A stretch of DNA of 64,000 bases from NCBI RefSeq assembly GCF_008831285.2, contig NC_045143.1, positions 248,001 through 312,000 on the forward strand. The letters are read 5' to 3'. The notes below the pieces were generated by a model that worked only from the letters and a program-made list of their open reading frames with translations, searched no databases and was not told the DNA's origin. This stretch comes from Nymphaea colorata (Eukaryota > Streptophyta > Magnoliopsida > Nymphaeales > Nymphaeaceae). Positions 4,151 to 48,496 of the stretch are shown one piece after another (the stretch's first letter is position 1; each line of letters starts with the position of its first letter). A program made the translations under genes and the position numbers.

Positions 4151-4473
4151 ACCACAGACCGGCCCCTGTCCTTGGGCACACTGCTTACTAGGAAGTTGGT
4201 GAATCCAATCCTTTTTCTTCTTGCTTTTTACAGAGATTCGAATTTGTGAATTCTGAAGCACTCATCGCGCATTCAACCATGCATGCGCACACCGATGTGA
4301 ACATGAAAATGCTGGTGAATATGATGATTAGTTAGCAAAGGTAAGTTGAAGTACATAATAGTCATCATCATGAAGAGATGCTATCCAAATTCATATAGTT
4401 TATTCATATAGTTTAATATGCCTCAATGGATTTATGGCCCAATTGGCGAGCAGCGGAAGGATAAATATCACAA
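4151..4473 (+). repeat. Dispersed direct repeat, copy B
   Basis: This is a second copy of the sequence at 1-318, in the same orientation and 4.15 kb away. It starts accacagacc and ends at tatcacaa. On its right it abuts the syntaxin-like fragment read from the minus strand, and it supplies that fragment's last codons. Copy A has no syntaxin sequence next to it, so the boundary near 4473-4490 looks like a junction between captured gene DNA and the repeat. Confidence 0.85.
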
Positions 4474-6160: not shown

Positions 6161-6166
6161 CTGTAA

Positions 6167-7592: not shown

Positions 7593-8498
7593 CTAATGAC
7601 CTTCAAGCAGTCGTGCCATCTCACTGTCTTTCCTTTCAAGTGCAGACTTAAACTGATTCAATGAGTAAGTCATTTCCATCAGCTGTTCACCCGAAGACTG
7701 CAAGTCCTTATTCTTTTCATCGATTCTAAGTGTGAGGTCGTCTACTAGAGTGTTCTTCTTTCGTTCTTCCTCCTCTTGGAGCTCACTAATAGTCTTTAGA
7801 TCACCATGATGAAGTTGCATCTTTACATAATCATCAGAATTGTGATAGTCATCTTCCCGCGCTAGCCATGCATACATACTTGAATCACACTTTTTTGACT
7901 CAATCCACTGAGTTTTACCATGGCACCTCAGCTCAAATGACTTCTCAAATGATATTGCACAGTAGAAACCTGTCCAATTCTTCTCAAATTCAACAACCGC
8001 CATTCCTCGAAAGCCCAGTGCATCCCACATAAGGGTTACTTTTGCTGGGCTGAATTCAGAAAACTGTGCCTTTAGCTTTCCATTAGTAACATAAGCCCCA
8101 TTCTCCAACGCAGTTGGTATATTAGCAACAATAGCCATCCAAGGCCATACAAATCTTTCTTCCTTACGTTCTAGTCTTACACGCTTGGGAGGTCTAGAAT
8201 CAATCATGGGTGGCCCGGAAGGCTTCAGCTGTTCCGCATCCTCCATCAAAATCATCTCTAGTGCACGATGTTTGGCAGCCTTTTCCAAACTCTTAGGTGA
8301 ATTTGCCACTCCATTCGCATGTTGGAGAATATCTTTATATCGATAGTCCTGCTTTTTCTTCCCCAGACAAAAAGGGCACTTGAATGTCCCATCTGCATTC
8401 CTTCGGAAAATTCCTCCTTCTTTCAGTTGTGCGTATGATTTCTGAACTCGATCTTCAAGCTCAGATTCACTGAAATCACTATTTTCATCTGAAGACAT
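7593..8498 (-). CDS. FDM: FDM/IDN2-like protein, zf-XS and XS domains (truncated gene)
   Basis: I chose the Met at 8498 (MSSDENSDFSESELEDRVQK) because relatives begin with this acidic stretch; the frame also has a Met at 8516. Domains in order: a zf-XS zinc finger with FKCPFCLGKK and a following ILQHANG; a basic linker (PPKRVRLERKEE); an XS domain opening FVWPWMAIVANIPT and continuing GFRGMAVVEFEKNW; then a coiled-coil start (ISELQEEEERKKNTL). FDM/IDN2 proteins bind double-stranded RNA with 5' overhangs and act with AGO4/Pol V in RNA-directed DNA methylation. The frame stops at 7593-7595. A weak donor (gaag/gtcatt) lies just before the stop, but its phase (1) does not match the phase-0 terminal exon at 6160. 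I infer an internally deleted, probably non-functional copy; a missed exon set is the alternative. Confidence 0.8.
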   Translation of the reverse strand: MSSDENSDFSESELEDRVQKSYAQLKEGGIFRRNADGTFKCPFCLGKKKQDYRYKDILQHANGVANSPKSLEKAAKHRALEMILMEDAEQLKPSGPPMIDSRPPKRVRLERKEERFVWPWMAIVANIPTALENGAYVTNGKLKAQFSEFSPAKVTLMWDALGFRGMAVVEFEKNWTGFYCAISFEKSFELRCHGKTQWIESKKCDSSMYAWLAREDDYHNSDDYVKMQLHHGDLKTISELQEEEERKKNTLVDDLTLRIDEKNKDLQSSGEQLMEMTYSLNQFKSALERKDSEMARLLEGH

Positions 8499-8894
8499 AT
8501 CCAGTTGCTTCCGCAATGCTTAGAATAGCTGAAATCAGCAACCTGATGGTAAACTTCGGGATGCACATAAACAATTCCCAAAGTCACTCTTCTTGCAAAA
8601 CAGAAACTTCAATTCACAATCATATGACGAATCCAGGATGCCAAAAGAGCATGGTTAAAGAAGTACTTCATGTCCAACTTCCAATTCACTGAAATCACTA
8701 TTTTCATCTGAAGACATATCCGGTTGCTTCCCCAGTGCTTAGAATAGCTGAAATTAGCAACTTGATGGTAAACTTCGGGATGCACAGTAAACAACTCCCA
8801 GGGTCACTCTTCCTGCAAAACAGAAACTTCAATTCTCAATCATATGACGAATCCAGGATGCCAAAAGAGCGTGGTTAAAGAAGTACTTCATGTC
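8468..8894 (-). repeat. 219-bp tandem duplication of the FDM-like 5' end
   Basis: Segments 8468-8674 and 8687-8894 are near-identical direct copies. Both contain cactgaaatcactattttca, the start-codon region, tgcttagaatagctgaaat and, at the far end, aagtacttcatgtc. On the minus strand, the copy closer to the gene carries the real start codon at 8498. The upstream copy carries a second start codon at 8717, in the leader of the gene. The copies differ by a few substitutions and a 2-bp indel, so the duplication is fairly recent. Confidence 0.9.
8655..8717 (-). CDS. Upstream ORF mimicking the FDM N-terminus
   Basis: The tandem copy of the FDM-like 5' end contains its own ATG at 8717. It opens a 20-codon frame, MSSDENSDFSELEVGHEVLL, closed by TAA at 8655. 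The first 11 residues are identical to those of the downstream protein; the rest comes from duplicated leader read past the junction. If the leader is transcribed through this point, this ORF would be met by scanning ribosomes before the main start, with the same sequence context. Translation is inferred, not shown. Confidence 0.5.
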   Translation of the reverse strand: MSSDENSDFSELEVGHEVLL

Positions 8895-11413
8895 ACCATG
8901 GAAAAGGAAGCCAAAACCCTGATTTTTACCTTCTGTAGAGAATACCAGAGATGACACTGGAACAGCAAAAGAAACGGAACAAGAGCCAGAGGGGGAGAGA
9001 GAGAGGGGGGAGAGAGAAAGGTTGGAAGCAGTGCAGACCGCTTTCAGTTCTGTGTCTTCTTCCTTATCCATCACAATGCAGACAAAGCAGCGTTTCTAAC
9101 GTCTCCACTGGGGCCGTTTGATGGCTTGAAAATGTGGAATTGGAAATATATTTCCTGGAAAAAATGAATGGGAAAAATCTTTCCGATTCCAATTTTAGTG
9201 TGTGTGTGATGACTGACGTATCTAACCCATCCACCAGCTCAAGCAACAGCTTACAGCACAAAACTCCTGTTAAGTTTGTGCATATGGGGGATCGGGTTTG
9301 TTCAGACCTGATCCACTTCTTTTATATCCACACGCCCAAATATACTAGGCGGTGGCACTCTTGTAATTTTTTATATATTTTTGTACAATCTGTTGTAACC
9401 TGATTAGGTTAATGTTTTAATAGAGATTAAGGATTGCAGGGCTGCATTGGCCGACTGCACCTTTTCCTCCATTGTCTTCCTTTCTATCCTCTCTTCTCGA
9501 TCTTTCTTATTTTCAGCCGGAGAGACATAATTTTGTGAAGATTCTATCAACTTCTACCTGGATATCAAATATTCAACACGATCCCCTCAGTGCTCTCCTT
9601 CTCTATGCCACTTTCTCAGCCCCCCTTCGGAGGCTAGGTTGAAGGGAAAAAACTATGGGATGAACCCCCAACTGTTGTCAAAATCTGACTAAGAAACTGG
9701 TAGGTGATGGCCTTAGAAATCTCACTTCTGTGATAGGCAACAGGTTCTAGCATCAGCAGGCCTGTAGCAGCCTGTCTCACCCAAGAGCCAGACTTTCTTT
9801 ACAAGATCCTCATGTTCAAGGTCAAGAGCATTTGTTTAACTTCTCTGCACCTAGTACTCAAAATAGGTAGCAAGAAAATACGACATTGTAAGGCCGGACC
9901 TTCCCTGGACATAACGACAATCAGCATGACCCCCCCAAACTATGCATTTAAGTAGCTCAGCCATGGTGATCAGCACTGACACTGGCCACGCCTCACACTC
10001 TCACATATTTGGCTGCTAAGGACACACAGATTCTGGAACAATATCAAAAAGTTAACCCCTATGAAATATTATTACCAAAAGTCTGAATATCTTTACAAAG
10101 AGGATAAAGCCTCATTTATAGACATATACACCTAACCTGCCCAGTAAGTTCCCCTTGGCCAACAATGACCTTCAACAAGTTCCACCTCTCATCTGCCCAC
10201 TAGACTGTCAACTGAAAGCTTCACTACTGCAGATCTCAGCTTCCTGAAGCTGCTGAATGCCTCTATGTGCTACTCATAGCCAATTCTCAAGTTCCATATC
10301 ACCTCAGTGCATCTCAAAACGACCATCACCAGAACATTGATGATAACAGGTCTTACTTATATCAGACATACCGATGTAGCGTTGTCAAAATCAAAATGGC
10401 TTTCAGATCTATCCAATCAACTACTGTTTAAGCAGCTACAGAACTATATGCATATGGCCATCTGATGCAGAGACACATTCAAATAAACAAGAGATGACGC
10501 TGTTAAGTAACTTCTAAAAACTATACCGCCCAAAAAGGACAGATTCAGATTGGCCGAGCACCTGAATCAAAGTTGTCATCTACATCAACACAAGAGCATT
10601 CACAAACAGGAAACTCCAATGAAAATTACACTGGCACGCCCTCTGATGAGAGAAAACTCCAAGCGAAACAAGATTTTACCAACACAAGCAAAACCTTCAA
10701 CTAAAAGAAGCATAAGAAAAAGCCCGACACAAATCAAGCACCGATGAGGGGTTCTCTGGCAGGCGGCAGCCCCTCCAAAGAAAAAGGAGTGCTGGAGAGA
10801 ACCCACTTTGCACTGGAGCATCTTACAAACCAAAAGCTCCTTCCCAATAATGAGAGATACATAGATAAATAGAGAGACAGAAATTATAGAGAAATAACCA
10901 CACCAACCAATAGCCATCTCTAAATTAAGAATTGTACAATTCATTCTTCTTCAGACAAAGAAATCACAAACCAGGAAATGCGAGCAGACTTGTGAATTTC
11001 TTTCAATGCATCAATATGATTAATCTTATCCAAGATTCTAGAGATGATCTCATCTCAACAAATCCATGATATGCGGATTCTCCATTTTGACTCCTGTTGT
11101 CCTGCACTATCTCCATCTCATATCAAGTCCATAGAAAATGCTGATTGTGGAATCAACAGACACATCCACATGAATAGGATGCAGGACAGCATGTCCACAA
11201 TTTGCTTGCGTTCCTCTCCTTACCTATCCAATTAAGTAACATCTAGCCTAGTTGTACATTAACCGAATATATTATATTGAAACCTGTCTTCAAGCCAACA
11301 AGAGATTGGTCCTAGTACTGTTGATGTTCAAGAGCATTAATTCTTTGGGTGCTCACCGCAGGAGTTTTATCCTTCAAAACCAAAATTGCAAGTTCTAGAG
11401 TTTGAGTTCTGAC
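8895..11413. other. Spacer with transposon-like ends and gene-leader sequence
   Basis: Around 9000-9075 the minus strand encodes MDKEEDTELKAVCTASNLS, an open frame that may be a leader exon of the FDM-like locus; part of this sequence recurs beside the hairpin at 18.9 kb. At 9107-9247 a stretch starting ggggccgtttgatggc ends with tctaacccatccaccagctc, a word that also forms the outer end of the 3.15 kb palindrome. From 9269 (tgttaagtttgtgcat) to about 9600 the layout resembles a degenerate LTR, but no second copy or coding domain supports this. The remainder to 11413 shows nothing I can name. Confidence 0.35.
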
Positions 11414-14400
11414 GCAATTTCACAGCCATCTAACCCATCCACCAGCTCAAGCAACAGACCTCTGGCGGTGCAGGCGACGGACGTTCGCAGACTGAAGATA
11501 CGATACAGGCCGGCAGGGCAAACAGTGGACGATGGAGTGAGACGACGAGCAGCGGCAGGAGGGAGACGACGAGCAACAGGCAGGCAGACCAGGGGAGGCA
11601 AGGCAGCAGCGGCAACAGGGAGACGAGCAGCAAGATGCGATGCGCGGGTGCTCTAATGGGAAAAAAATAAACCCGGAAAAATATATAATCAGGACTGCAT
11701 TATGTTGCGGTTTTGCCTTTCATGTTCCACTCCATTTTGTTTTGTTTATGGAATAATGTCGTGATGAAGATATATTATGGAGTATGTTTACCTTTTTCTT
11801 ATTTGAGGGCAGCTGGTTACGTCGGACTGGCTCAAAGCACAAGAAAGCTTTCGCTTTTTTCCCAATTGGCAGAACGATGTAGAATGAGAGAGAAAGGAAA
11901 ATAACAAAACATAAGCCCAACAACTTGAAAAAAATTACATCTACAAATCAGCTCTTAATGCTTGTATGAGGTTGAATGTACCAGTATTTTTCCATAGGTT
12001 ACTGAAAATTAACCAAACGTCATACAAAATGAAGGAAACCATGCGTTTCACTGAGACCGCCTCATTTCTATAGATAATATCATTTCTGGAACGATGCAGA
12101 ATGGAACCTAACAAAAGTTTACTCCGTCATTCCTGATCATTCTACCATCAAACATGGATCGAGATTTGAAAAATCAAAATTTTTCATTCGGAATGTTTTT
12201 CCTGAAATTTTTTCACTGGGTAAATTTACCCTGCCATCAAACGGGGCTTCAAGAAAAAAACAAAATGTTGTTTAATCTTTTAGCAATAATTTTCGCGTCC
12301 GAACACATTTTGAAATGATTTAATTTCTGTTCTTGACAAATACTTTGATTCATGCAACCATGTGTTCAATTCCTCGTTCTGAATGTTAAAAATGTTTTGG
12401 CCTCGCGAGCAGTGGCATCTCCTCTTCGTTCCAAGGCCATCCTTCTTGCCAAGCAGACCAAGTTCTTGCTGCCCGTTAAACTGGTATTCAATCCAATACC
12501 TTTTAATTAAAATTAAGTGAAAAATACAAAAAGTCAGTTGAAGTTTGATCAAATAACAAATCCCCGTTCAACTTTTGAATGTCAGCAAACAGATGATTAA
12601 CTTTTGAGAAGAATTTTCAAAGGACCGACCATTTACTAATAGAAAACAGTAAAATATGATAAAAATGCCTCTCCTTAAAAACTACTCTTCCTTTGGTTCT
12701 TTTTGTCTTTAAAAAGGTACTATTATTATCTTCTATTAGATATTACTTTTTATTTATATACTATACTTTTATAGATGGTTCTTTAAAAAATTTTCGCATT
12801 GTTTATATGCTTCCAATTTAACTATTTTATTAAAAGCCTTCGTCGTTCGGTCGTTGAGCTTTGGTTCAATCAAAACTATTAATCTCGTACTGTTCAAAAA
12901 GTAACGAACACATCCATCGAATTCATCTTACCACAAAAATGTAACCATACGTTAGAAAATAAATAACCAAAATTATATATATATATATATATATGACCCT
13001 TAAGTATTTCCTTTTAAACTGGTATTTACACTAGAGCCTTGGTTACGACATTTTCAAGATCGTCGTTGATGCTCTGTCTAGATTCCCGGCGTCATCGATT
13101 GGAGAAACCAGTGGACTCAGTTGGCGCCACCCATCACTATAGAAGCCGTTCGGAATTCCTTCTCCTTCCAGTTTACTCACCCGTCCTTCCCAGATCAAAG
13201 GTTAGGGGGCAAACGTCGAGGATGGTTAAATCTCTTCTCTCTCCGTCTCCTGGCCCTTTCGCTTAAAAAATTAAGGGGAGAATGTGAAAACAAGGAGAGA
13301 GTTCCATTCCAAGGGGCGAGGGTTATATTCCATGCTCTTCCGCCACCGCCACTGTTCCCCTCATTACCTTTATTGAGAACAAACAAAAGCAAAACGAGAA
13401 GGAATGGGTTTCCAGAAGATGCCCACAAACCATCCTCCACCTAAACAGGTGCCACCAATTTATATATATATATATATATATATTGGGTTGAATACCAGTT
13501 TAACGGGCAGCAAGAACTTGGTCTGCTTGGCAAGAAGGATGGCCTTGGAACGAAGAGGAGATGCCACTGCTCGCGAGGCCAAAACATTTTTAACATTCAG
13601 AACGAGGAATTGAACACATGGTTGCATGAATCAAAGTATTTGTCAAGAACAGAAATTAAATCATTTCAAAATGTGTTCGGACGTGAAAATTATTGCTAAA
13701 AGATTAAACAACATTTTGTTTTTTTCTTGAAGCCCCGTTTGATGGCAGGGTAAATTTACCCAGTGAAAAAATTTCAGGAAAAACATTCCGAATGAAAAAT
13801 TTTGATTTTTCAAATCTCGATCCATGTTTGATGGTAGAATGATCAGGAATGACGGAGTGAACTTTTGTTAGGTTCCATTCCGCATCGTTCCAGAAATGAT
13901 ATTATCTATAGAAATGAGGCGGTCTCAGTGAAACGCATGGTTTCCTTTTTGGTATGACGTTTGGTTAATTTTCAGTAACCTATGGAAAAATACTGGTACA
14001 TTCAACCTCATACAAGCATTAAGAGCTGATTTGTAGATGTAATTTTTTTTCAAGTTGTTGGGCTTATGTTTTGTTATTTTCCTTTCTCTCTCTCATTCTG
14101 CATCGTTCTGCCAATCTGGGAAAAAAGCGAAAGCTTTCTTGTGCTTTAAGCCAGTCCGACGTAACCAGCTGCCCTCAAATAAGAAAAAGGTAAACATACT
14201 CCATAATATATCTTCATCACGACATTATTCCATAAACAAAACAAAATGGAGTGGAACATGAAAGGCAAAACCGCAACATAATGCAGTCCTGATTATATAT
14301 TTTTCCGGGTTTATTTTTTTCCCATTAGAGCACCCGCGCATCGCATCTTGCTGCTCGTCTCCCTGTTGCCGCTGCTGCCTTGCCTCCCCTGGTCTGCCTG

Positions 14401-14567
14401 CCTGTTGCTCGTCGTCTCCCTCCTGCCGCTGCTCGTTGTCTTACTCCATTGTCCACTGTTTGCCCTGTCGGCGTGTATCGTATCTTCAGTCTGCCAACGT
14501 CCATCGCCTGCTCCGCCAGAGGTCTGTTGCTTGAGCTGGTGGATGGGTTAGATGGCTGTGAAATTGC
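11414..14567. mobile_element. 3.15-kb palindrome (fold-back or long-TIR element)
   Basis: The left arm (11414 to about 12497) and right arm (about 13483-14567) are inverted copies of roughly 1.1 kb around a spacer of about 1 kb. The outermost bases are gcaatttcacagccatctaa on the left and its complement ending gctgtgaaattgc on the right. The inner ends are ctggtattcaatccaata and tattgggttgaataccag. The arms contain the mirrored words cgtttgatggcagggtaaat and gcatctcctcttcgttccaa. No transposase ORF and no clear target duplication are visible. The right end abuts the terpene synthase intron sequence exactly at 14567/14568, which marks an insertion boundary. A fold-back element or Mutator-like element with long terminal inverted repeats is the most likely class. 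Confidence 0.85.
12498..13482 (+). other. Spacer of the 3.15-kb palindrome
   Basis: The first half is AT-rich with an (AT)n run at about 12972-12994. The second half (about 13030-13440) is more GC-balanced, with open frames of up to 107 codons whose products I do not recognise. It could be captured host DNA. A (TA)n run at about 13459-13483 lies exactly against the right arm. Confidence 0.5.
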
Positions 14568-16080
14568 TTTTTCCTTTATCATTAATTTCAATTGATTTTG
14601 TTGGGATTCTTTCCTTGAATCTCTCTAACACGGTTGCCTTCCAACCTTATCGTTAACAGAATGAGGCGACAGTAGCGGAAGAGCAAGCATGACAACACAT
14701 AAGGAACTTGGTAAGGGATGCATGGAGGAAGCTGAAGAAGGAGTTGCTCTCTGCTCAGCAGCAGCAACAACAGGCCGCCTTCTCTTGTTCCTTCTTCAAC
14801 GTGGCTGTCAACATTGCGAGGGTCTCTCTCTGACTGCTAGAGGGTGTAAAAAATATTTGAACGCTAACTTCTCACGGCGGCTGGGCTGGAAAAGATGTTT
14901 TTCAAGTAAAGGGGATTGATCAAAGTCGAAGAATGTTGCCTCGAATTTCAACCCTACCTTTTGATGTTATTTCCATTGAAGCTTGTTTAGCAAGTTCGAG
15001 TTTGTATTGGAATGCACTGGCACCTGACTATATAATGAACTAGTCCACTCTCACATCGATCCTTTTCGATATGGCCCCATGGTTTGATGAATTGGTTCTT
15101 AGTAGTTTTGCTTTTAGCTCCAAAAAGGTTGGACATCAGAATGAATGTCTACTTTAACAACCTCTTTTATTATTTTTTTGAGATTTGTCACTATGTTAAA
15201 TACCATATCAAACTTTTTAAAGTGGGATGTTAAAGTCCACATTCCTTAAAGCACACTTCTACTTTTGTGGAGAAATAGATTTGAGTGTTGAACCATGTTT
15301 TGATACCAATGAAATTAACCTTTTTAAAGCTAGAAACTGATATATATCTGTCCCGATCAATGCTGAAAACTATCTTTGTTTTCCTGGTCTTTGATTAAAC
15401 ACAAAACCAGCAAACACGGACAATAACTACCTTTTTAAAGAAGAAATGAAATATGTTCAGCCCTCATATTCTAGCTTCACAAAAGATGATAGAACATATG
15501 ACAAATGATGGCTTTATAATGTTAACGTCTTATATATATATATATATATTCGTCGCTAGATCTCGTTAAATGGCCGTCAAGTGGAAGAAAGAGTTTATAT
15601 CGTATATCCTGTAGGGATGCATTTCAAGGCCTACACTCATCGAATTTACCTTGCCACAAACACATAATATAGGGACGGAGCAGAGAAGAGATCGAAATGC
15701 ATAACAAACTTGGGTGACAAGTTGTCACTGCAAGAACATAAAAGGAGGGAGAGAAGGAGAGCTTTCTCATCAAATCCTGCCCTCGGGTGAGCAAGTAGAC
15801 CAAAGAAGAACCCATCTGTCCCAAAAAAGGTAGTTATGTACTCTGATCGGGAAACTTTTTTGTTCAAGGGATTTCTCAAGTTGTTTTCCTAGTTATTGGA
15901 GGAATGACCATTGCCAAGGGCCAGAGCTAGGCTGTCACACTAGTTCAATATAATATCTGTCAACTCTTGACCAATGCCTCAGTTGGTCATATATATATGA
16001 CCAGCTGGCATGAAAACAATTGCAATAGCTTTGCAATATTTGGTTAGCCACATACTCACTTTAGATTCGTAAGTTTTGTC
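14568..16080 (+). repeat. Segmental direct duplication, copy 1 (first part)
   Basis: This segment matches about 21184-22770 in the same orientation, with scattered substitutions and indels. Shared landmarks are the intron end gattctttccttgaatctct, the terpene synthase exon remnant, gcttgtttagcaagttc, acacaaaaccagcaaacac, a (TA)n run, tcgtcgctagatctcgttaa, and ccaatgcctcagttggtcat. After about 16080 (ttttgtcaaacc) similarity stops. It resumes at 18104 in this copy but continues directly at 22772 in the other. Confidence 0.9.
14660..14833 (+). pseudogene. Terpene synthase last-exon remnant, copy 1
   Basis: After an acceptor-like ccttatcgttaacag the frame reads NEATVAEEQA, a stop, QHIRNLVRDAWRKLKKELLS, a glutamine run, then FSCSFFNVAVNIARVSL and a stop. 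The pattern E.A..HI..L...AW..LN.E.L followed by F...F..VA.N.AR matches the C-terminal helices of plant terpene synthases, near the end of the alpha domain. The usual GDG loop and C-terminus are missing. With an in-frame stop after EEQA and no upstream catalytic exons (DDxxD) nearby, this is a dead fragment. It sits directly beside the 3.15 kb palindrome. Confidence 0.65.
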
Positions 16081-18103
16081 AAACCGTCGATATTCAAACT
16101 ACAAAATGGTCATTGTCTGTCATGAGTGGAATGAAAAATTCATGGAATTAATGCAAACCAAACGTCTTTTAGACAAGAGACATGATTCTCGTTGGAATTT
16201 ATCCGTGTGAGATATTGCCCGATCTCGAATAGTCTCTAATCCCATACCACAAATTTGTTTTCCCGTCATTTGAAGGAAATGTATGTGTGCCAAATTGACA
16301 CATGAACTTTTCGATGATAAAACTGTGTCGTGTGCCAAATTGACACATGAACTTTCCGATTATAAAACTGTGTCATTAGGAAAAAAAACGAGTCTATTTT
16401 GATCATAAAACAAGTTTATTTTGATTATAACAAAAGTTAATATTAGTGGATTTATTTCAAAATATCTAAAATTATGTAACTATTTAGTGGATTTATTTTA
16501 AAACATCTAAACAATATAACTTTTTTTGCAGGGTAGAGCAATAAATTTATCTATATATAACTATTTAGTGGATCTATAGATTTGACTATATATAAACCAG
16601 TTGTGTAGATTTTGAATTGATAGTGCATATCTAGTGACACAAATGTGTTTGCCTTGATAAGATACTCCGTTAGTTCCTCTTCCTCTATGGCGATGACGAC
16701 ACCTGCTCCTTTTAGGGTTTATGGTCCATGGTAGTGTCTCAATGCATCTCTAATACTCTCTGGCACCCCTAGGCACCAATGTGTCGTGTGTTTGTGTGAT
16801 TAATGTGTAGATTTTGTATCTATTGGCAGTCGGCAGCTTTACCGTATAAGCAATGGTAGAGAGAGGGAGAGAGGAGAAGGGGAGAGAGAGACAAGAACCA
16901 GTCCATTTGAATTTTGGCCTGATCATGACACATCTAATTTCAAGATGAACACTACTTCTCAATATTATTAAGATAACATCCTTCAAAAATCAAACTAAAG
17001 ATGTGGCTATAGCACGCCATCCAACCCAACCGGTTGCAATCAACTTGGTGTGTGTGTGTTTTTAGTGTGTGTGTTAGAGAGAGAGAGAGAAAGGGAAAAA
17101 AAAAGAAGAGAAAGATAGATAGATAGATAAATGGGTACAGACTAAACCACTACCTTCTTCATTTGAACCACTAAATGTAAAACCCTCAGCCTAAATCTCA
17201 ATGCTATCGGGAGGATAGATAGCACTCATGGAAAATGAACTGTGACATGCTTCTTAACACACCTCTAACCTAATCAGCTACACGTCATTCCATCTAATTA
17301 TGAAGGAGAGTTAACTATTACTAACTCTCTGTACAAGTGGGTGTGGTGGCAGGTTCACTAACTACAGACACACACACACGATAGAGAGAGATAATGAAAA
17401 TGCACATACTAGCTAGATATGCGTTCTCTTCCGGCGATCTGACTGCTGTCTACTTGATTTTTGGGGTTCTTTCGATGCATCTTCTTGCTAGCACTTCATG
17501 CCCTGCTGGTTTTCATATAAAATAAAAATTTTGAAAAAATTAATTAAATGGAATTGGGTCCCATCGAGCCGACCCAAGTCAGGCTGGTTCGATAATCATT
17601 GGGCGGTCGAGGTTGGTTTCTGATATCAAGTGCCCGTCGGCTACCCAAAGTCCGAAGCTCAGTAACTAGCGTCGTTTATTGCTATGTTGTTTTTTATTTT
17701 ATATTGCCAAAAAATATTGTCGCAAAAAGGACATTTCGTCGCTAAAAAACATAGCTCTATGGTTAATATTTTTTTTTTAAACGATTTTTAGCTAACCATG
17801 CAGCCACAAAACGTTTTTAACAGATTTCAATATATATATATTCCATGTTGTGATGGGGATTCCACGCGAGGCCGTAATGATGCAGTGGTTTTGACAGCAC
17901 TTCACTTTTTCAATTCTCTTTGTCCTTTTATTCTCGGTGTATAGTTATACAGACTAGCTGGTGCTTTTACGGGCCAGCCGGACACTCCACCAGCCATTAT
18001 GTACCGTATTGTACACCTCTATCATCATCCCCACTCGCCTTTGGTTTTGAGCTAAGCTTGGACCGAGCCAACTCAACTCAGAGCACCTAAACTTTGACGA
18101 GGC
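16081..18103. other. 2-kb segment present in only one copy of the segmental duplication
   Basis: This stretch interrupts the similarity between 14568-18605 and 21184-23338. It contains a tandem pair at 16285-16375, a GA-rich tract near 17070-17115, and no recognisable gene. Either it was inserted into copy 1 or it was deleted from copy 2. No terminal inverted repeat or target duplication is obvious at its edges. Confidence 0.6.
16285..16375 (+). repeat. 46-bp tandem duplication
   Basis: Two direct copies begin tgtgccaaattgacacatga at 16285 and 16331 and continue actttNcgatNataaaactg tgtc. They differ by a few bases. Confidence 0.85.
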
Positions 18104-18605
18104 CAGTTGCTTCTCTACCCACTTTGTAGTCCACGTTCAATCTCTATAAATCTCAGACCAAGGGCAGACCCATTGGGCTCGATGCCCATTTGGGATGAAT
18201 TGAATATTTTGTTTGTTAAGAGAAAATTAGGAACAAGGAACAACTTTATGTTTGTCCGATGCGCCTATACAACCTATTACGCTGAGATTATAAAAAATAA
18301 TTGGTTGCAGTTTTCTTAGCTTAAAAATTAATGTTTTCTTACATTATAAAATGAATTGCCCAACTGTCCTATGTCTATCATTGCAGTTGTCAAGGGTGCT
18401 ACGTATTTTTGTTTTTATAGTGTCCCTTACACCAAATAATTGACATAAAAAGAAACTTTTATGTACATTATAACTGACCAAATAACTTTTTTTTTAATTT
18501 TATATCATTGAAGGTACATTTGAATACTAAATGCAAGTATCGTCATCAATACACATCTTGTCATGTAAAGCAAAGTAAAACACAATCATTTAACATCGAA
18601 AGCAG
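18104..18605 (+). repeat. Segmental direct duplication, copy 1 (second part)
   Basis: Similarity to 22772-23338 resumes here, with shared words agggcagacccattgggctc, ttgcccaactgtcctatgtc and acacaatcatttaac. It is decayed by indels. No coding function was seen. Confidence 0.85.
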
Positions 18606-18924
18606 TTAACTGTTCGGTGAATTTCTCTCTTATAAGTATGTACAGGTAATACTTAAAGTACAGATAAGATTTCAAGATGCTTAATATAGTATAAGGATGG
18701 CTGGTCGGATGTAGAAGGCCGGTTTGATTCATGTGCACGCCACTTTCCTCAACTCAACATTTAAAGTTAAGAATGAGCCCTACCATCCATTAAAATGAGG
18801 AGTAGCTAGCTAAGCTAGGACTCATTTGGCTCTCCCGTCGTGTTGCAAATTATCACAAACAAGACGGCTTTTACCTCTGTGATCCATCGTCCACGAAGCC
18901 TCCAGACCGCTTTCAGTTCTGCGT

Positions 18925-19526
18925 CTTCTTCCTTGTCAGTATATGTCAGTGTGAGTGCTTGGCAGTCCAGCGTGTATGCTAGAAATGGATAGACGTTGAT
19001 GATTTTAGATTATAATAAGATCAAGAGTTCATTTCAACTGATGAATTGGATAAGCCACTTCCTACAAAAATATAAATTGCTCGATTCATGTGCACATCTA
19101 AATCAAATCTTGCTTGTATATGTATACTTTTCCAAACAACCTCCTTGACTTTTGTGTCCTCTCTTGGTTAATAAAAAGAGAAACAAACACGATTGAAACT
19201 AATGATCTACTTTTTGTTACAAGATCTTTTGTAGATCATTAGTTTCAATCGTGTTTGTTTCTCCTTTTATTAACCAAGAGAGGACACAAAAGTCAAGGAG
19301 GTTGTTTGGAAAAGTATACATATACAAGCAAGATTTGATTTAGATGTGCACATGAATCGAGCAATTTATATTTTTTGTAGGAAGTGGCTTATCCAATTCA
19401 TCAGTTGAAAGGAACTCTTGATCTTATTATAATCTAAAATCATCAACGTCTATCCATTTCTAGCATACACGCTGGACTGCCAAGCACTCACACTGCCGTT
19501 CCATACATATACTGACAAGGAAGAAG
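18925..19526. repeat. Near-perfect 0.6-kb inverted repeat (long hairpin)
   Basis: The left arm 18925-19210 and right arm 19231-19526 are complementary over about 285 bases around a 20-base loop. Inner ends are aatgatctac and gtagatcatt; outer ends are cttcttccttgtcag and its complement. I count only a few differences: two substitutions, one single-base indel and one short insertion (about 9 bases) near the outer end. Such identity implies a young inverted duplication. A transcript through it would fold into a long, almost uninterrupted stem, of the kind plants process with several Dicer-like enzymes. It encodes no protein. Confidence 0.9.
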
Positions 19527-20395
19527 GGTGCTCCACGTGGTGGAAATTTAACGGAGAAATAACAGGGTGCTCCACGACCGTCCGTCCACCTTAACAAACA
19601 TGCCCTCACTTCTGGTGTGAAAATTTAGGCGATATGCCGTCAAAATTTAGGCGATGAGTGAAAGCTGCGACAGGCCATCTGCACTGCTTCCAACCTCTCT
19701 CTCTCTCTCTCTCTTTTTCTGGCACTATACAGTGGAAAAAAGAATGAGCGTCGGAAACTATACCGTGGAAATTAATTCTACAAAATGACACTTTTTAAAA
19801 AGTAAATTATTCTTTTGTTTTATATAAATAAGTTTTTTCTTCTTTAATTTGTCACTTTATTTATAAAAAAATTAAATTGTGCTCTTTAAGTAGTGTTTAA
19901 TAAAAAACAACACTTTATTCTTAAAACAAGTGTTTTAGTAATACTATGATCTTACTTGAAGAAATATAACTCGACTAGGTCCCTCATTTGGTTGTTGGAC
20001 TTATAAATTATATTCATATTGCACATATATATATTTTTTAAAACATGTGTTTTAAAAGCGCAAGTTTTTCTTATTAAATACCCCCTTAAGTACTCGCGTG
20101 CATGTGTATGCAATGTTTAAAATACATTTTTTTTTACAATGTGAAGCATAAATAGATTTGTGGCAATTGTTGTTTATGAAACATTATGCTTTGAATAATA
20201 TTTTAAGAAATACAATGGTAAAATTATAACTCTCCAAGTTTTAATGGATTGTGATTTATTGATGTCTTAAATGGTGGGTTGTACACTTGGTTCAATGTCT
20301 TTTCATTAAACATGCATGGTTTTTCACCATGGAAGACCACTATAAGTCTTGGTTACAAAATGCATAGAAAGAATGTAAATAGTTGAAATTTCTAT
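19527..20395. other. AT-rich spacer
   Basis: The word gtgctccacg occurs twice (near 19528 and 19566). A (CT)n tract follows gcactgcttccaacc at about 19678-19715, and that word pair is the reverse complement of sequence at 9.0 kb. Nothing coding is visible. Confidence 0.4.
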
Positions 20396-21274
20396 AACCT
20401 TCGATAAACATGAGAAACTAAATCGGATTTTTGTGAAAAGATTTTTTTTTCCTTTATCATTAATTTTGATTGATCATACTGGGATTCTTTCATTGAATTT
20501 TTCTAAAACGGTTATCTTTCAATCTTATCATTAACATCATCCCTCAAAGTAGACGATAGATCTAAAACTCAAAGTTTGTTGCTTTGTAAAAGGTGATCAT
20601 GCCATCTCTTTGGCAGTGATTCGGTGAACCTAAATTTGCTTCATAAAATTTTTTGTGAAGCTAGATCCTGTTTTGGCAGCGATTCAGAAAACTCAAGTTT
20701 GATTCTTCAAGATTTTCTTCACAGAATAAAGTCTTCACTTTGATGGAGGAGGCAGCCATGTATTTGGTTATTTGCAGGCCACCTATGGGCTTAATTCTTC
20801 TTCGTCAAGCATTCTGCTCTGATATCAAGTTAAAAAATAAAGAAAAAACAAAACAAATAAAAACTAGCAATAAAAAGATTATTTTAATTAAATGTGCATG
20901 GTTTTTCACCATGGAAGGCTACTATGAGCCTTAGTTACACAACACATAGAACGGGCTTAAATAGTTGAAGTTTCTATAATTTTGGCAATGATAAACATGG
21001 AAAACTAAATCTGATTTTGTGAAAAGATTTTCTTTTCCTTTGTCATTAATTTTGATTGATCTTGCTGAGATTCTTTCCTTGAATTTCTCTAGAACGATTG
21101 CCTTTCAACCTTATCGTTAACACTATAATCTTGACAACGATAAACATAGGAAACTAAATCTGATTTTTTTGAAAAGATTTTCTTTTTCTTTTATCATTAT
21201 TTTTAATTGATCTTATTGAGATTCTTTCCTTGAATCTCTCTAACACGGTTGTCTTTCAACCTTATCGTTAACAG
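20396..21274 (+). repeat. Three copies of a terpene synthase intron-end repeat (~148 bp)
   Basis: Segments at about 20396-20536, 20975-21124 and 21125-21274 share ataaacat.gaaactaaat, gaaaagatttt, ttgatt, gattcttt.cttgaat and cttatc.ttaaca. The last two are head to tail. A fourth, shorter copy ends at 14659. Only the copies ending at 14659 and 21274 are followed by the terpene synthase exon remnant. The unit therefore looks like the 3' end of an intron that was amplified locally. Confidence 0.75.
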
Positions 21275-21460
21275 AATGAGACAACGGTAGCGAAGGAGCA
21301 AGCACGACAACACATAAGGAACTTGCTAAGGGATGCATGGAGGAGGCTAAACAGGGAGCTGCTCTCGGCTCAGCAGCAGTAGCAACAGGCTGCCTTCTCT
21401 CGTTCCTTCTTGAATGTGGCTCTCAACATTGCGAGGGTCTCTTTCTGGCAGCTAGAGGGT
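21275..21460 (+). pseudogene. Terpene synthase last-exon remnant, copy 2
   Basis: The exon follows ccttatcgttaacag and reads NETTVAKEQARQHIRNLLRD, AWRRLNRELLSAQQQ, a stop, then QQAAFSRSFLNVALNIARVS. It is better preserved than the copy at 14660: the codon that is a stop there is Arg here, while here the stop lies in the glutamine run. The two copies thus carry different inactivating changes and decayed independently. Function in the intact family is cyclisation of prenyl diphosphates; this fragment lacks the metal-binding motifs and cannot do this. Confidence 0.65.
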
Positions 21461-22115
21461 GTAAAAGAATATTTGAACGCTAACTTCTCACGACGGCTGA
21501 GCTGGAAAAGATGTTTTTCAAGTAAAGGGGATTGATTAAACCCGTAGAACGTTGCCTTTAGGAATTGTGTGTTACATTGTTTTGTCGAATTTCAGTCCTG
21601 CCTTTTGATGTTATTTCCATTGAAGCTTGTTTAGCAAGTTCAAGTATGTATTGTAATGCACTGGCACCTGATTATATAATGACCTAGTCCACTCTCATAT
21701 TGATCCTTTTTTATATGGCCCCATGGTTTGATGAATTGGTTCTTAGTAGTTTTGCTTTCAGCTCGGAAAAGGTTGGACATCAAAATGATTGACTACTTTA
21801 ACAACCTCTTTTATGAGTTTCTTGAGATTTCTCGCTATGTTAGATACCATATCAAACTTTTAAAAGTGGGATGTTAAAATCCACATTCCTTAAAGCACAC
21901 CTTCTACTTTTGTGGAGCTATAGATTTGAGTGTTGAACCATGTTTTGATACCATTGAAACTAACCTTTTTAAAGCTAGAAACTGATATATATCTATCCCG
22001 AGCAATGCTGAAAACTATCTTTGCTTTCCTAGTCTTTGATTAAACACAAAACCAGCAAACACAGACGCTAACTACCTTTTTAAAGGAGAAATATGTTCAG
22101 TCCTCATATTATAGC

Positions 22116-22263
22116 TTCACAAAAGACGATAGAACATATGACAAATGATGGCTGATGGCTTTATAATGTTAGCGCCTTATATATATATATATATATATAT
22201 AAGGCGCTAACATTATAAAGCCATCAGCCATCATTTGTCATATGTTCTATCGTCTTTTGTGAA
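22116..22263. repeat. 148-bp palindrome centred on (TA)n
   Basis: The left arm ttcacaaaagacgatagaac ... aatgttagcgcctta and its exact complement on the right enclose a pure (TA)n centre. Beyond the right arm a second (AT)n run (22263-22282) leads back into sequence collinear with copy 1 at 15.55 kb. The arms look essentially identical. Confidence 0.9.
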
Positions 22264-22771
22264 TATATATATATATATATATCCAAAATGAGTACACATC
22301 GTCGCTAGATCTCGTTAAATGGTCGTCAAGTGGAAGAAAGAGTTTATATCGTATATCCTGTAGGGATGCATTTTGAAGCCTACACTCATCGAATTTACCT
22401 TGCCACAAACACATAATATAGGGAGGAAGCACAGAAGAGATCGAAATGCATTAACAAAATTGGGTGACAAGTTGTCACTACAAGAACATAAAAGGAGGGA
22501 GAGAAGAAGAGCTTTCTCATCAGATCCTGCCCTCGGGTGAGCAAGTAGACCAATGAAGAACCCATCGGTCCCAGAAAAGGTGGTTATATACTCTGATCGG
22601 GAAACTTTTTTGTTCGAGGGATTTCTCAGGTAGTCTTCCTAGTTATTGGAGGAATGACCATTGCCAAGGGCCACGGTTAGGCTGTCACACTAGTTCAATA
22701 TAATATCTGTCAACTGATGACCAATGCCTCAGTTGGTCATATATATGTTAGATTCATACGTTTTGTCGAAC

Positions 22772-23338
22772 CAGCTGCTTCTATACCCAGTTTGATCATT
22801 TTGTAGTCCATGTTCAATCTCTATATAAATCTCTCAGACGAAGGGCAGACCCATTGGGCTCGATGCTCATTTGGGATCATTTGAAAATTTTAGTTGTAAT
22901 TTGAATATTGTATTTGTTTAGAGGAACAATGAACAATTATGTTTGTCCAATGCCTATACAACCTATCACACCAAGATTACAAAAAATAATTGGTTGTAGT
23001 TTTCTTAGCTTAAAAATTAATGTTTTTTTACATTATAAAATGAATTGCCCAACTGTCCTATGTCTATCATTGCAATTGCCAATGGTGGAACATATTTTTA
23101 TTTTTTATTTTTTGGGAAGGGAGGTCATGGCCTCCCCTTCCCGATGCCTTCAATGTTTTGGTAAGAAACTTTTTTGTATATTATAACTGACCAAATAATT
23201 TTATGTGAATTTCATCATCAATACCTCAATACACATCTTGTGATGTAATTTTATGTGAATTTCATCATCAATACCTCAATACACATCTTGTGATGTAAGG
23301 CAAAGTAAAACACAATCATTTAACGTCGAAGCAGCCAA
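22772..23338 (+). repeat. Segmental direct duplication, copy 2 (second part)
   Basis: This continues directly from the first part and matches 18104-18605. It includes a local 50-bp tandem duplication at 23196-23295 (ttatgtgaatttcatcatca followed by atacctcaatacacatcttg, twice) that copy 1 lacks. Confidence 0.85.
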
Positions 23339-23936
23339 CTGCCTTGAATTGTCATATATATATATAATTAAAATTCACATATTACTTTTGTAGAGAGATG
23401 ATTTTTTAAAAGTATTTTCTTAGTAAAAACCAAAAAAACGTCCTCAGAAACCAAAGCCAAAGAAAAACCGTTGCGTATGTACTTTTTACACGGATTTTGA
23501 CAGCTAAAAATAAAAAAAGGCCCTCGTCGGTAAATTTCTCTCTCATATTTAAACTTTACTCGGAAGTCGAAACTCAGTCCAATTAATAAGCGATTAATTT
23601 CTTTTTTATTTTCTAAACTTTTGCTGTCGCTCCAGCCGTCGCATCATTTCGCGGGAAATGGAGGCCGTCTACACGTCATCTATAGCGTCCATCTGAAAGA
23701 TGAATGGGAGAAAGGCGGAGAACGGTGACGGGCGGAGCCCCCCGAAACCCAATGACCCAGGTTTCTTCCGGTCATCTTGAAGACGTACGGCTAAAGATCC
23801 ACTCCCCGATCTCCGTTGCCTGATCGAGATCTCGCTCTCCCACTGAGCAAGATGAAGCAGCAGAAGAAGGAGCCATAGAGGAAGGAAGGAGGGAGAGAGA
23901 TTAGGGTGGCGGAGGAGCAGCGGTGGTCCGGAAAAG
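23339..23936 (+). promoter_or_regulatory. Upstream and 5' leader region of the AP-3 beta gene
   Basis: Base composition shifts from AT-rich to GC-balanced at about 23630. The last 250 bases contain purine-rich leader-type sequence (gaggaaggaaggagggagag) leading to the start codon at 23937. No confident TATA box or transcription start can be assigned by eye. Confidence 0.4.
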
Positions 23937-26900
23937 ATGTTCCCTCAATTCGGGCCGACGGCGGCGAGCATAACTAAAGCGTCGACTATGGTGTTCAGGA
24001 TCGGAACGGATGCCCACCTTTACGACGACCCAGAGGACGTGAGCATCGGGCCCCTCCTCGACAGCAAATTCGACTCGGAGAAGGTCGATGCCTTGAAGCG
24101 CCTCCTCGCGCTCATCGCCCAGGGTTGCGACGTCGTCAATTTCTTCCCTCAGGTTTCATCTTTTCCTTCTGTATTTAGGGCTTGATTACGTACCTTCTGT
24201 TATCTCCTAGTCGAATTCTGAGATCGTCCGGTTATATTCACTTATCGGTCAATTGAACAAAGGGTTTCCATTGTTCGAATGGAAAAGTAGTTCATGTGGG
24301 AGATAGCTAATGAGTTGCTGATCCAATATTGAGTATGGGTGTTAGGAATGGCGGATCTTGGTTCACTGATTAACTGTAGTCACTGATTGGCTGGTAACAC
24401 GGCAAATTTCGATGTAGAAATCGAAAATTTAGTTCGTACGGCCGTCTTCTGATAGTAGTTCAAGACGACTACGTGAGATTGGGTTTCTGTATAGCCAGGT
24501 GCTCTTTTTTCTTCTTTTTGGTTTTACTTCAGAATATGGAGTAACGTTTTTCCTGAAGTTTGAGCATCCAGCAATGCCAAGAAAAGATCGCCGACTCTAA
24601 TGATCTTTATTATTTTATTGGATCTTACCTTTCTTTTTTGGTAGAAATACTTTTTTCTCCCCTTCTTTGCTTTGGTTCTTAGAATTTGGTAACTGATTGA
24701 GCAGCGTGAAACGTCTGTTTGTTTTTTTATACCTCGTGTCTAACCTCTTCTGTTATTGTACTTCCATTCTGGCTGTGAGGCTAATCTTTTCCTTTCTGGT
24801 TCATGTTTTCTGGGAACTGAAAATGTAGGTTGTTAAAAATGTTGCATCTCAATCATTGGAAGTGAAGAAGCTCGTCTACTTGTATCTACTGCATTATGCG
24901 GAAAAGTACGTTATCTCCTTCCGTGTCTTCATATGTTTATTTGGGTAAGCTTTCCATGAGCTGGCGTCAATAACACAGGCTAAGATACTGAATTGCGTTG
25001 GAGTTTCCTTATCGGATTTGAAATTGATAGAAGCACGAATGTGACACTTTCTCTTTCACAAATTGAAGGTGGCAAAGGGCGACTCATGGTGTATTGGCCT
25101 CTGATTCCCAGTGATTTTAAAGGTTTTTCATGTTCCACTATGCCATGAACAGCTGCCTGAGCTTGGACAAGTTTGATAGTTGTCCAACTGATATGTCACA
25201 CATCCCCTTCCTTCCACTAAGTTTTGTTAGCATTGATTAAGTACAAGTCAGTGGCTTTAATGGAACATGTTTGAGTGGACATCTGATTTTTTGGGTTCCT
25301 TTTTCTCGAGCTTCTCACTGTGTTGATTAAGCTCTCATGTTTTTGAACTGCCCTACCATTCAGTAAAACAGATTACTGAAACAAATGAAAATAGAACAAT
25401 CAAAGTCATGTTAGTGTAACATTTAGTTGATTAATAGATGGAATTTAGTATGTTGAATGAAGTATTCTTTGAAGTCTCTTGATGAGGCCTTAGGCACCCC
25501 ATTGGCTAGAGCTGCTTGTGAATGGTTAATTGAGTAGATTACCTATCATGTGGGCTGGTGTAACTAAATAACTGTGTCTAGATAATGCTTAGGCTTCTAT
25601 AGTGCAAGTGTAGCACATGGGGGTCTAGGTAACCACCAAAATGAGAATCATCCAGGCTTTATTTTCTTATTTTAGCTTTTCATTGGAAGGTCTTGTAAAA
25701 TGTGAGGTTTTCATGTAGACTTTTTATTATTTAAATTTTTGTAGTTCTTCTTTATTTTTAAAGTTGATCTCATAGTCTAAGCTTGTTTGACCATGTTGGT
25801 CAATGTATTTGCTTAATTGTCACTAGGTTATGTTTGTGGGTGACTAGGCGAGTCAGCGAGCTAGTTGTCGATAAAATTATAATAAGTTAGGATGTTCTGT
25901 GGTAGAGCACAGCATGCTACAGCCATTTGTCTCAGTCTCCTTGATGGTATCTGCATGCAAGTACTGCCTTCCCCCTTACCATGTTGTCTGAGTATCTGGC
26001 CTTCTTTCAGTTTATAAGCCATTGATTTTGAAAAGAAATTGTCTTCTTTCTGAAACTCTTTGTATCTGATTGATGTCAAATTGCTTCTTGTTTTTCATAT
26101 TTCATTGTTCCAGACGACCAAATGAAGCACTGTTATCCATTAATTGTTACCAGAAGGACTTAGCAGATCTGAACCCATTGGTACGTGCCTGGGCTCTTCG
26201 TGCAATGGCAGGTATTCGCTTACATGTTGTAGCTCCTCTTGTTTTAGCAGCTGTTGGGAAGTGCGCTCGAGATCCATCTGCATATGTTAGGAAATGTGCT
26301 GCTAATGCCCTTCCAAAGTTGTATGATTTGCGTCAGGAGCAAACCTATGGTTCTATTGAAGAGGTAAAAATTTTTACTTATCCCATATTTATCCCATATT
26401 TCGTCTTTAAATAATGGCTACTTTTTTTCATCTTTTATCGTCCTGTCATGCAGCTTATTGGAATCTTGCTGAACGACAATTCACCTGGTGTTGTTGGAGC
26501 TGCTGCAGCAGCATTTAATTATATTTGCCCCACTAATTTGGTGCTGATAGGCAGAGGATTTCGCAGACTCTGTGAGATTCTTCCTGATGTTGATGAATGG
26601 GGACAGATAATCTTAATTGGGATTCTTCTGCGATATGCTGTGGCAAGATATGGCCTTCCAAGTAGATCATCTGTTGGTGTATCTTCTGAGAATCGGAGCT
26701 CATTTTCTAAAACAATTTCTGTAAATGTGGATGCTTTACCTGAAAATCGTTTTGGAATGACAGAAGGACAAGTTGATGATTCAAATTTTATTTCGTTGTT
26801 GTTCAGTTCTTATGTGGAAGGACAAGATGAGTTCTTGTTAAGATCAAACTGTACAACCAAAAGTTCAGACTTCTTAGAAAGTCCAGGTCTTTCGTGTGGT

Positions 26901-29900
26901 GAAAACCATGATGTTAAGATTCTTCTGCAATGTACTTCACCTCTTTTGTGGAGTCAAAACAGTGCTGTGGTCCTTGCAGCAGCTGGAGTCCACTGGATTG
27001 TGGCTCCCAGGGAAGATATCAAGAGGATCATTAATCCAATTTTATTTCTTCTCAGATCAGCAAACTCCTCATTATATGTGGTAAACAACTGATTCAATTA
27101 AGCAAGCAGCTTATATTTTATCACCTTCATGAAATGCAATATCATGACGTCTGTGGGAACTTCGTTTTTGTTTGGTTTGTGCAAGTATGTTCCATTTGAC
27201 TTTTTGTGTGAAATATTTCCATTCATTTAATTAATTCTTTAAGTTCTAATATTGCCTTTGCAGGTTCTGTGCAACTTATTAGTGTTTGCAAAGGCAATGC
27301 CTTCTCTCTTTGCACCATACTTCAAGAACTTTTTTGTGCATTCTTCTGATTCATACCATATCAGGGCTATGAAGCTTGAGATACTGTCTATCATTGCTAC
27401 TGACTCATCAATTCCACTTATTTTTCAAGAGTTTCAGGTAGGGCTTTATCCTTTTTCATAGTTGCATTCCAAATGTTGACTGGGATTCCTAGCAATTAAC
27501 AAATGATAAAGACTGCTATTTTGCACAGTCCTGTAATGTAAAGTCACCTATCACATTTCACAATCAAGTAGGTTTGCTTACAGTTTCTATCTCTCTCTAA
27601 GTCACACACATACTTACACGCACATTGTCAAAGATTAGGTGATGTACCACCTATATGCATCATCATCACAAGTCAAGTGTTAGTGTTTTACAGCCTGCTG
27701 TCAAAATGTGAGGGATCTAGTTTTCTTTTTTTTCCCTCTTCTGTTTTTTTTTTATGAAAATATACAATTTGTGGAATCCTCAAAATGTCTGTTATTATTT
27801 TTTCAATTATTTTTCATTTTTAAATTTAATTTTGTAATTTTTAAATTTGTCTTTTGGACTTTCAAAGTCCTGCTCAGGTTATTAGAGCCTTGACTGCCTA
27901 AGCATCTAATCAGTTTTTGATTGTCTGGCTCTCTCCCCTCTTCCCTCCCCCCCCCCCCCCCCCCCCCCGAACACCAAAAAAAAAAAAAAACCTCTTCAGA
28001 CATACGCACATTGGTTTTTGCATGAGTGCTTGGTCCTGGCCAGGCAGGATTTTCGATCATTTGGTGATAGTAGGGAACATTCATGCATTTAAAGAGCTAT
28101 GTGGTTGCACTAAGTTTATGATAATCTTTCAAGGCATTGACTACATTAAATCAACTTTTCATTCAATCTGCTGAGGAAGTTTTAGGTCTGATTCTTACCT
28201 TTTTAGTGTATTGTTAGGACTATCTTAAAGATCCAGATAGAAGATTTGTTGCTGATACAGTTCATGTGATTGGTGAATGTGCACAACGGCTTCCAAAAGT
28301 TTCTGCTACATGCTTGGAAGGACTTTTGAATTTGATCAGACAAGGTTCATAAAATATTCTCTGCATTAGTATGAATGCATTTCTCTTTTGGTTGGAGAAG
28401 ATATTCCACTAACATAGCACTTCATTCTTTAGAGTCCTCTGAAAATATCATGAATATGGAAGAAGAGGGAGCTGTGCTATCGCAGGCAGTGGTTGCCCTC
28501 AAAACAATTGTAAAAGACAGTCCTGCTAAGCATGAAAAGGTAATGTTTTTGGTAAACTACATCCTCTTTCTCTGAAATAAGTCAAAGGAGAAGTCCAGGT
28601 TCTAAAAATTGACACGTCAAATTTCTTATAGACTTCTTCCATACATGCAATATGAGGTTGCCCAGTTTAATTACAATATATAGCTTTGAAGTTTGATATT
28701 TATGTTCCATGATTTGTTTCTATATTTGACTCTATAATGGTTAGATGTAGGAATGTGTTTTACAATGTTTAAAATTGTAGACTTCTGTGAATCTGATGAG
28801 TTTTATAGTAGAACCACTTGGCTTTTCATGGTGCAGCATGACCTCATTGTGGAAGTCAAGGGCTAATGTTCCAATCATTGAAAAAGAAAACCTATTCATG
28901 TCACCCGAATTGGAGGGCAACAAGGTTCATATGATTAATTTTTTTTCCGAAATTTCATGGACCACCACCAATCTTTCTAGATATTTATATGTTCTTAGAA
29001 ACCATGTTCCTTCTATCTAGCTAAGATAGTCCTCTATGGGGTCTGAATTCGTGACCTCTTCCTTATACTAGTGCAATCTAACCACCTTGAGATAAGTTGC
29101 AATCCAATCTCAAAACTTTTGAAATCCTTGCAAATTGTAGTGATTCAAATTGATGGTGAAACTTCAACAAAAAGAACATAATTTGCAATATCATTTCAGA
29201 GTTGCTGTCAGTTTAACTTATTGTTTCTATGTTTTTGAAGGTGATTATCCGTCTCGCTCGTTGCTTAGATATAATCAAGGTCCCTGCTGCTCGTGCTCTG
29301 ATTGTTTGGATGATAGGAGAATATTGTACAGTTGGGCGTGACTTTCTGCAGACGATACCTGTCATACTTCAATATCTTGCTCAACACTTCAGTTCGGAAA
29401 ACATGGAAACAAAGCAACAAATCCTTAATACAACTGCTAAGGTAATGATGTTGCACATAGATGTGTAGTGGATGTGAAGATTGAAGAACCAGGACTGTTG
29501 CCTTAATGGTGTGTCTGCTATATTGAGATTGCTATTTTTCTTCTATTATTTATTACAGGTTAAAAATGTTGTGGTCCAAATATTTTTTGCCTTTTTTTTT
29601 TTGCGGGTTGGGTTGGAGAAGGGGGGGGGGGGGTTTGGGGGATTGCATAGGGAAATGATAAGTAATAATTACACATTTTGTCATAAATGAGAAATGGTGT
29701 CTGCTTTTGAAAATTTCTTACTACTCTGCTAATCTAAGTAACATAGACTCTTTAGAAAGGTTGCCACACTTGAGTCGACAAAACTCAGGTAAGGCAATGG
29801 ACAGTTTGCTTGCTTTTCCATTGAATAACTGAGTGGACACACACACACACACGCACATGTGTCCTGCACCCATGTTTTTATGAAGAATGCCACATGGTGC

Positions 29901-48482: not shown

Positions 48483-48496
48483 CCAAATGCAAAACC

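Follow-up and report, generated by a model that had tools for sequence, protein, structure and literature searches.

The inverted repeat that lies at exactly 18925-19210 / 19231-19526 in a 64-kb window of Nymphaea colorata NC_045143.1 (248,001-312,000; the window is the whole stretch of DNA that was analysed, and positions are counted from its first base) is probably a low-divergence, head-to-head inverted duplication of about 290 bp, which would have been taken from the promoter side of an FDM/IDN2-like 5' end that had itself been duplicated, with a 20-nt spacer between the two copies. An inverted duplication of this 5' end is better supported than a proto-microRNA as an account of the hairpin. 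The arms themselves probably consist of promoter-side sequence, judging only from the 13-nt edge of the arm and from the flanks.

The interest of the locus lies in the neighbouring gene of RNA-directed DNA methylation and in the preserved fold-back history of the region. The hairpin is a natural inverted repeat that seems to be young and lies close to its probable source, the undoubled paralogue of another fold-back has been kept nearby, and the birth of hairpins by inverted duplication can consequently be read from the sequence of this region.

Structure of the hairpin

An earlier sequence-only reading of this DNA had described two nearly identical arms of about 285 bases around a 20-base loop, and the alignment of the arms confirms this description, including its exact coordinates, with two substitutions and two indels between the arms. 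The parts of the hairpin are as follows.

18925-19210, plus strand: left arm of the inverted repeat, 286 nt
19211-19230, no strand: loop, 20 nt, with a small internal near-palindrome around AAGATCTT
19231-19526, minus strand: right arm of the inverted repeat, 296 nt, including a 9-nt segment absent from the left arm

Over the 286 aligned bases there are 284 matches, and the substitutions, at 19031 and 19177, correspond to a rate of 0.7% (95% interval 0.2-2.5%). One of the indels is a 1-nt difference in an A run, and the other is the 9-nt segment carried by the right arm only. The low divergence of the arms may reflect either youth or gene conversion, and the unlike flanks are compatible with both.

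The predicted RNA fold of 18900-19550 has an energy of -505.4 kcal/mol, and because none of 20 dinucleotide shuffles of this sequence (mean -142.5, sd 4.8) reaches so low a value, the hairpin cannot be regarded as a chance structure. The whole foldback measures 602 nt, and perfect duplex is formed in 184 of the 266 21-nt windows of the left arm, so that the long, near-perfect stem by which hpRNA or inverted-repeat siRNA loci are recognized is present. The longest stop-free stretch in the arm, taken over all six frames, is 51 codons. The ratio of observed to expected CpG is 0.47 and 0.53 in the arms, 0.80 and 0.82 in the flanks and 0.54 in the whole window; with values near the window mean and only four to five CpGs per arm, the arms show no special loss of CpG that would mark past methylation.

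The sequence-only reading had also held that the parent of the arm is not found elsewhere in the window. For the body of the arm, where 21-mer matches stay at the level of shuffled sequence, this stands; at the outer edge it has to be corrected, because the outermost 13 nt of the left arm, together with the 22 nt that precede them, match 9034-9068. The arm body, of about 270 nt, has no match at 9069-11413, upstream of the FDM-like gene described below, nor elsewhere in the 64-kb window, and dispersed related copies of the arm are likewise absent from the window. When the 21-mers of the arm are compared with the rest of the window, the best of them have 4 mismatches, a level reached by 23 of 266 and undercut by none, and when 10 shuffled arms are treated in the same way their minima are 2-4 mismatches, with 1-27 windows at 4 mismatches. 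Candidate small-RNA targets inside the window were rejected, since the matches of the arm 21-mers fall within the range of the shuffled arms. A search for an exact 25-mer of the arm in viral contigs, where a plant repeat is not expected, gave 0 matches.

Neighbouring genes and the presumed leader sequence at the borders of the hairpin

The gene to the left of the hairpin combines the three domains of the IDN2/FDM family, zf-XS, XS and XH, in separate open frames on one strand.

5939-9068, minus strand: FDM/IDN2-like gene with zf-XS, XS and XH domains

The ORF at 7593-8519 contains zf-XS (E 1.2e-16) and XS (E 3.3e-32), and XH is found at 5939-6178 (E 9.4e-29). Proteins of the XH/XS family are reported to occur only in plants (PMC3935573), and in Arabidopsis IDN2 and its paralogues are reported to take part in RNA-directed DNA methylation as components of the pathway (PMC3342958). 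The stretch 9010-9068, about 500 nt ahead of the coding start, appears to be the leader of the gene, judging from its position and from the TC-rich sequence around it. A 220-bp tandem duplication at 8465-8894 extends across this coding start, and in its second copy the first 58 residues of the protein are readable at only 45% identity. There is no FDM coding match in the hairpin or its flanks, as tblastn of the XS ORF returns only the gene itself and 8580-8735.

To the right of the hairpin, on the plus strand, lies an AP-3 adaptor beta-subunit-like gene (Adaptin_N at 26415-27089 and AP3B1_C at 32587-33741, both passing the Pfam cut-offs). On our reading, this AP3B-like gene starts near 23.9 kb, at the ORF 23856-24185, which has no Pfam match of its own.

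Two abutting parts of one sequence, the presumed leader of the FDM-like gene, flank the hairpin in opposite orientations. The features that border the arms are these.

18613-18902, no strand: left flank, from the end of the first tandem copy (see below) to the leader piece, mostly unmatched
18903-18937, plus strand: direct copy of 9034-9068 (presumed leader), 33 of 35 nt, lying across the outer edge of the left arm
19527-19677, no strand: gap between the right arm and the leader piece, 151 nt, with no significant match
19678-19705, minus strand: inverted copy of 9037-9010 (the abutting part of the leader), 27 of 28 nt, continuing into a TC tract

The left match scores 55.4 bits (E 3e-8), with 22 of its bases outside the arm and 13 inside. 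The right match, which includes the low-complexity TC tract, scores 48.7 bits (E 1e-7) when other scoring is applied and 50.0 bits when it is left unfiltered. As a control, 18613-20299 was compared with 30 dinucleotide-shuffled windows, for which the best score was 35.6 bits (BLAST 2/-3, low-complexity filter); the left match was scored under these same settings and the right one under others, so that the right match is compared with the shuffles less strictly. Gapped alignment to the leader gives scores of 61 on the left and 66 on the right, and the maxima in 300 mononucleotide shuffles each are 26 and 32.

The order on the right side, 9068-9056 followed by 9037-9010, is collinear with an inverted copy of the leader. 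The left and right pieces represent nearly non-overlapping parts of the leader, and when they are aligned directly with each other the score does not rise above that of shuffles (reached by 110 of 500). Beyond the leader pieces, similarity of the flanks to 7593-9033 is at a level that shuffles also reach (74 of 100 on the left and 66 of 100 on the right), and the same is true of the right flank when it is compared with the upstream stretch 9069-11413 (28 of 100). A 13-mer at 19525-19537 recurs at 19564-19576, which is at chance level (E 0.93), and in the left flank only 18614-18634 resembles another sequence, 23527-23547, upstream of the AP3B-like gene (E 0.026; the score is reached by 0 of 100 shuffles). 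The mark of an inverted duplication of host-gene sequence is thus found at the edge of the arm and in the flanks, in the form of the FDM-like leader, and is not found in the arm body as far as the window extends.

Duplications in the intergenic region

The hairpin is situated in the intergenic region between the FDM-like and AP3B-like genes, where it lies between the two copies of an older tandem duplication.

14564-18612, plus strand: first copy of the older tandem duplication, adjoining the hairpin region on its left
21179-23341, plus strand: second copy, on the right side of the hairpin region, leading into the AP3B-like gene

Substitutions between the copies amount to 8.5% and 5.6% in two parts of the duplication, and a third part (18093-18612 in the first copy) is about 75% identical with many gaps. 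Because this third part is more diverged than the other two, the history of the tandem duplication cannot have been a simple one. About 2.1 kb of the first copy, 15997-18092, are absent from the second (22747-22761), and this segment is possibly a transposon insertion or else the trace of a deletion.

The window contains 17 inverted pairs of at least 40 nt, and arms that are at least 98% complementary are confined to three repeats, situated between 11.4 and 22.3 kb; this clustering within 11 kb was noticed post hoc and carries no formal test. One of the three is the hairpin. Another is a low-divergence inverted repeat at 11414-12498 / 13481-14567, which has arms of about 1.1 kb, a 982-nt spacer and 15 substitutions over 1083 aligned bases. 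No exact direct repeat of 5-15 nt that could represent a target-site duplication lies within 12 nt of its ends. Near the outer ends it carries 30 bases that also occur, without a difference, at 9220-9249, upstream of the FDM-like gene, and on the left side the similarity reaches further out.

The remaining repeat is a palindrome at 22106-22274 in the second tandem copy, with 80-nt arms, no spacer and a TA repeat at the pivot, and its counterpart in the first tandem copy is a single version at 15476-15549. The palindrome looks like a fold-back duplication of which both the doubled and the undoubled states are visible.

Further repeats lie elsewhere in the window. Direct repeats at 1-318 and 4151-4473 are 84% alike and about 4.15 kb apart, and may have arisen by duplication or as the long terminal repeats of an element. 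A second pair at 50543-50800 and 63744-64000, 90-94% alike and 13.2 kb apart, with the second member reaching the end of the window, may also represent long terminal repeats. A diverged 57-bp minisatellite occupies 48482-49455, in which the frame 48510-48833 is open for 107 codons.

Proposed origin and expected behaviour

The most economical history of the inverted duplication would be the following. When the region between the FDM-like and AP3B-like genes underwent its older tandem duplication, a truncated FDM leader would have become part of the second unit, and a fold-back or template switch would then have copied this truncated 5' end, along with about 270 nt upstream of it, in the inverse orientation. 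The innermost 7 nt of the arms could have primed the fold-back. The junctions would have been altered later, with the middle of the leader on the right side being replaced by 151 bases. The left leader piece stands in the order expected of a tandem copy with the remainder 14564-18612 / 21179-23341, and a fold-back origin is supported by the fact that a second fold-back adjoins its undoubled paralogue in the same region. Template switching has been reported to produce perfect stems from one event (PMC8794818).

Transcripts of either copy would be expected to leave the stem in an outward direction. Since both arms appear to be promoters that face outwards, native transcription would not cross the stem, and a hairpin RNA would form only through read-through from outside or through Pol IV. 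Several Dicer-like enzymes would be expected to process any such RNA into a mixture of 21-24-nt siRNAs, not into a single microRNA; Pol II transcripts with inverted repeats are described as possible substrates of DCL3, which yields 24-nt RNAs, and of other Dicer-like proteins, which yield 21-22-nt RNAs (PMC7544125). The siRNAs would act on their own locus and on any locus that shares the promoter sequence of the arm. The hairpin DNA is also likely, as an inverted repeat, to attract methylation, which inverted-repeat DNA is reported to draw both at PAI1-PAI4, where it is dense, and in hpRNA transgenes (PMC9263138). If it is read through, the hairpin is possibly an inverted-repeat silencing locus.

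Alternative explanations

The same inverted duplication might be an inert by-product, untranscribed, unmethylated and without effect. Since this possibility assigns the hairpin the same origin as the explanation favoured here, the odds of the two overlap, and we regard inertness as a possibility that deserves some weight but is on the whole doubtful. It would be in keeping with an intergenic region rich in tandem and inverted duplications, and it is opposed by the wide observation that inverted-repeat DNA in plants attracts methylation (PMC9263138).

It is unlikely that the hairpin is instead a MITE or another fold-back transposable element with long terminal inverted repeats. The size of 602 nt and the full-length inverted repeats would be fitting for such an element, and the arm is without a relative in the window, as would be the case for an insertion. 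The ends of the repeat, however, do not have the properties of element ends: no exact direct repeat of 6-15 nt that could represent a target-site duplication is present within 25 nt of them, 2-3 nt at the exact ends are unmatched, and, because the FDM-like leader is matched by the arm's outermost 13 nt and by the adjoining flank, the point at which the repeat ends is not the end of an element.

The sequence-only reading had proposed a young proto-microRNA or siRNA locus. The structure, the low divergence and an origin by inverted duplication are all in agreement with that proposal, and a hairpin-siRNA locus is possible; the proto-microRNA, a transcribed hairpin evolving towards a DCL1-processed microRNA directed against the parent of the arms, is the weaker half, and we consider it decidedly improbable. 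A near-perfect long stem formed by inverted duplication suits the inverted-duplication model, in which, as reportedly formulated by Allen in 2004, the arms are copied from transcribed target sequence; the arms considered here look promoter-derived and are oriented outward, which speaks against a proto-microRNA, as does the lack of any target in the window beyond shuffle level. A precise miRNA/miRNA* duplex in small-RNA reads is reportedly the criterion for a MIRNA gene (Meyers in 2008, and Axtell and Meyers in 2018), and no single miRNA/miRNA* duplex is favoured in this stem, because perfect duplex extends over so many of its 21-nt windows (184 of 266). The foldback also exceeds, at 602 nt, the usual limit for plant MIRNA foldbacks of about 300 nt or less. 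A figure quoted in PMC11706861 has 98% of plant hairpins at most slightly above 300 nt, and PMC3053258 gives an average of about 146 nt for plant precursors and a range of 55-930 nt, so that 602 nt is inside the range. The 64-kb window has 0 Rfam families at gathering score (cmscan), although a young MIR gene need not match. More favourable to a proto-microRNA is the report that proto-miRNA inverted repeats at the Arabidopsis S locus produce heterogeneous small RNAs, some of them against the 5' region of a gene (PMC13128112). On this evidence, the hairpin is not likely to be a microRNA gene.

An assembly or library artefact, in which a fold-back chimera was read into the assembly, could be suspected from the presence of two more inverted repeats of high arm identity within 11 kb, but it is very unlikely, as the 9-nt indel, the two substitutions and the unlike flanks on each side are not expected of a chimeric copy, and the other nearby duplications differ by 1.4 to 8.5% substitutions, as in a natural history.

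Comparison with known systems

The inverted duplication of the FDM/IDN2-like 5' end is related by position to a known family, since the neighbouring gene has the domains of IDN2/FDM proteins and the leader of that gene borders the hairpin; in contrast to IDN2/FDM genes, the hairpin offers no more than pieces of a leader together with putative upstream sequence. None of the papers listed in literature searches has an FDM-derived hairpin in its title, which is a weak negative. One can imagine a self-silencing loop, in which siRNAs from a hairpin of FDM/IDN2 promoter sequence would guide RNA-directed DNA methylation to the promoter of that same family, and if this were true, a component of the methylation machinery would be throttled by its own product. 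The idea is speculative, and we give it very little credence. Because the copy in the window shares only the 13-nt edge with the arm, such a loop requires a family member that has the arm in its promoter.

The PAI inverted repeat is a pair of whole genes, whereas the hairpin described here comprises only about 290 bp of probable promoter-side sequence. PAI1-PAI4 in Arabidopsis Wassilewskija is also a natural inverted repeat, and it is reported to be densely methylated there (PMC9263138). Methylated inverted-repeat loci are, according to the same source, able to act on single-copy loci elsewhere (PMC9263138).

The precursors of the mir1887 and mirS3 families at the Arabidopsis S locus are likewise inverted-repeat hairpins, and one of them, Ah04mir1887, gives rise to small RNAs with a match in the 5' region of its target gene, SCR01 (PMC13128112). 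Where hairpins of the S locus correspond to the 5' region or to an intron of SCR, they are reported to lower the SCR transcript, apparently without RdDM (PMC13128112), so a match to a promoter need not mean methylation. These precursors differ from the hairpin in the present work in that they are described as transcribed, processed and active, apparently without RdDM (PMC13128112), whereas the hairpin here is known from its sequence alone.

The template-switch hairpins of Monttinen and Loytynoja resemble the proposed fold-back in that perfect stems are described as arising from reverse-complement copies made in one event (PMC8794818). The two differ in scale: that report deals with RNA stems whose helices comprise 2-10 consecutive pairs (PMC8794818), and the arm here is about 290 nt long. 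The 80-nt palindrome at 22110-22269 is closer in size to the template-switch stems described there than is the arm of the hairpin.
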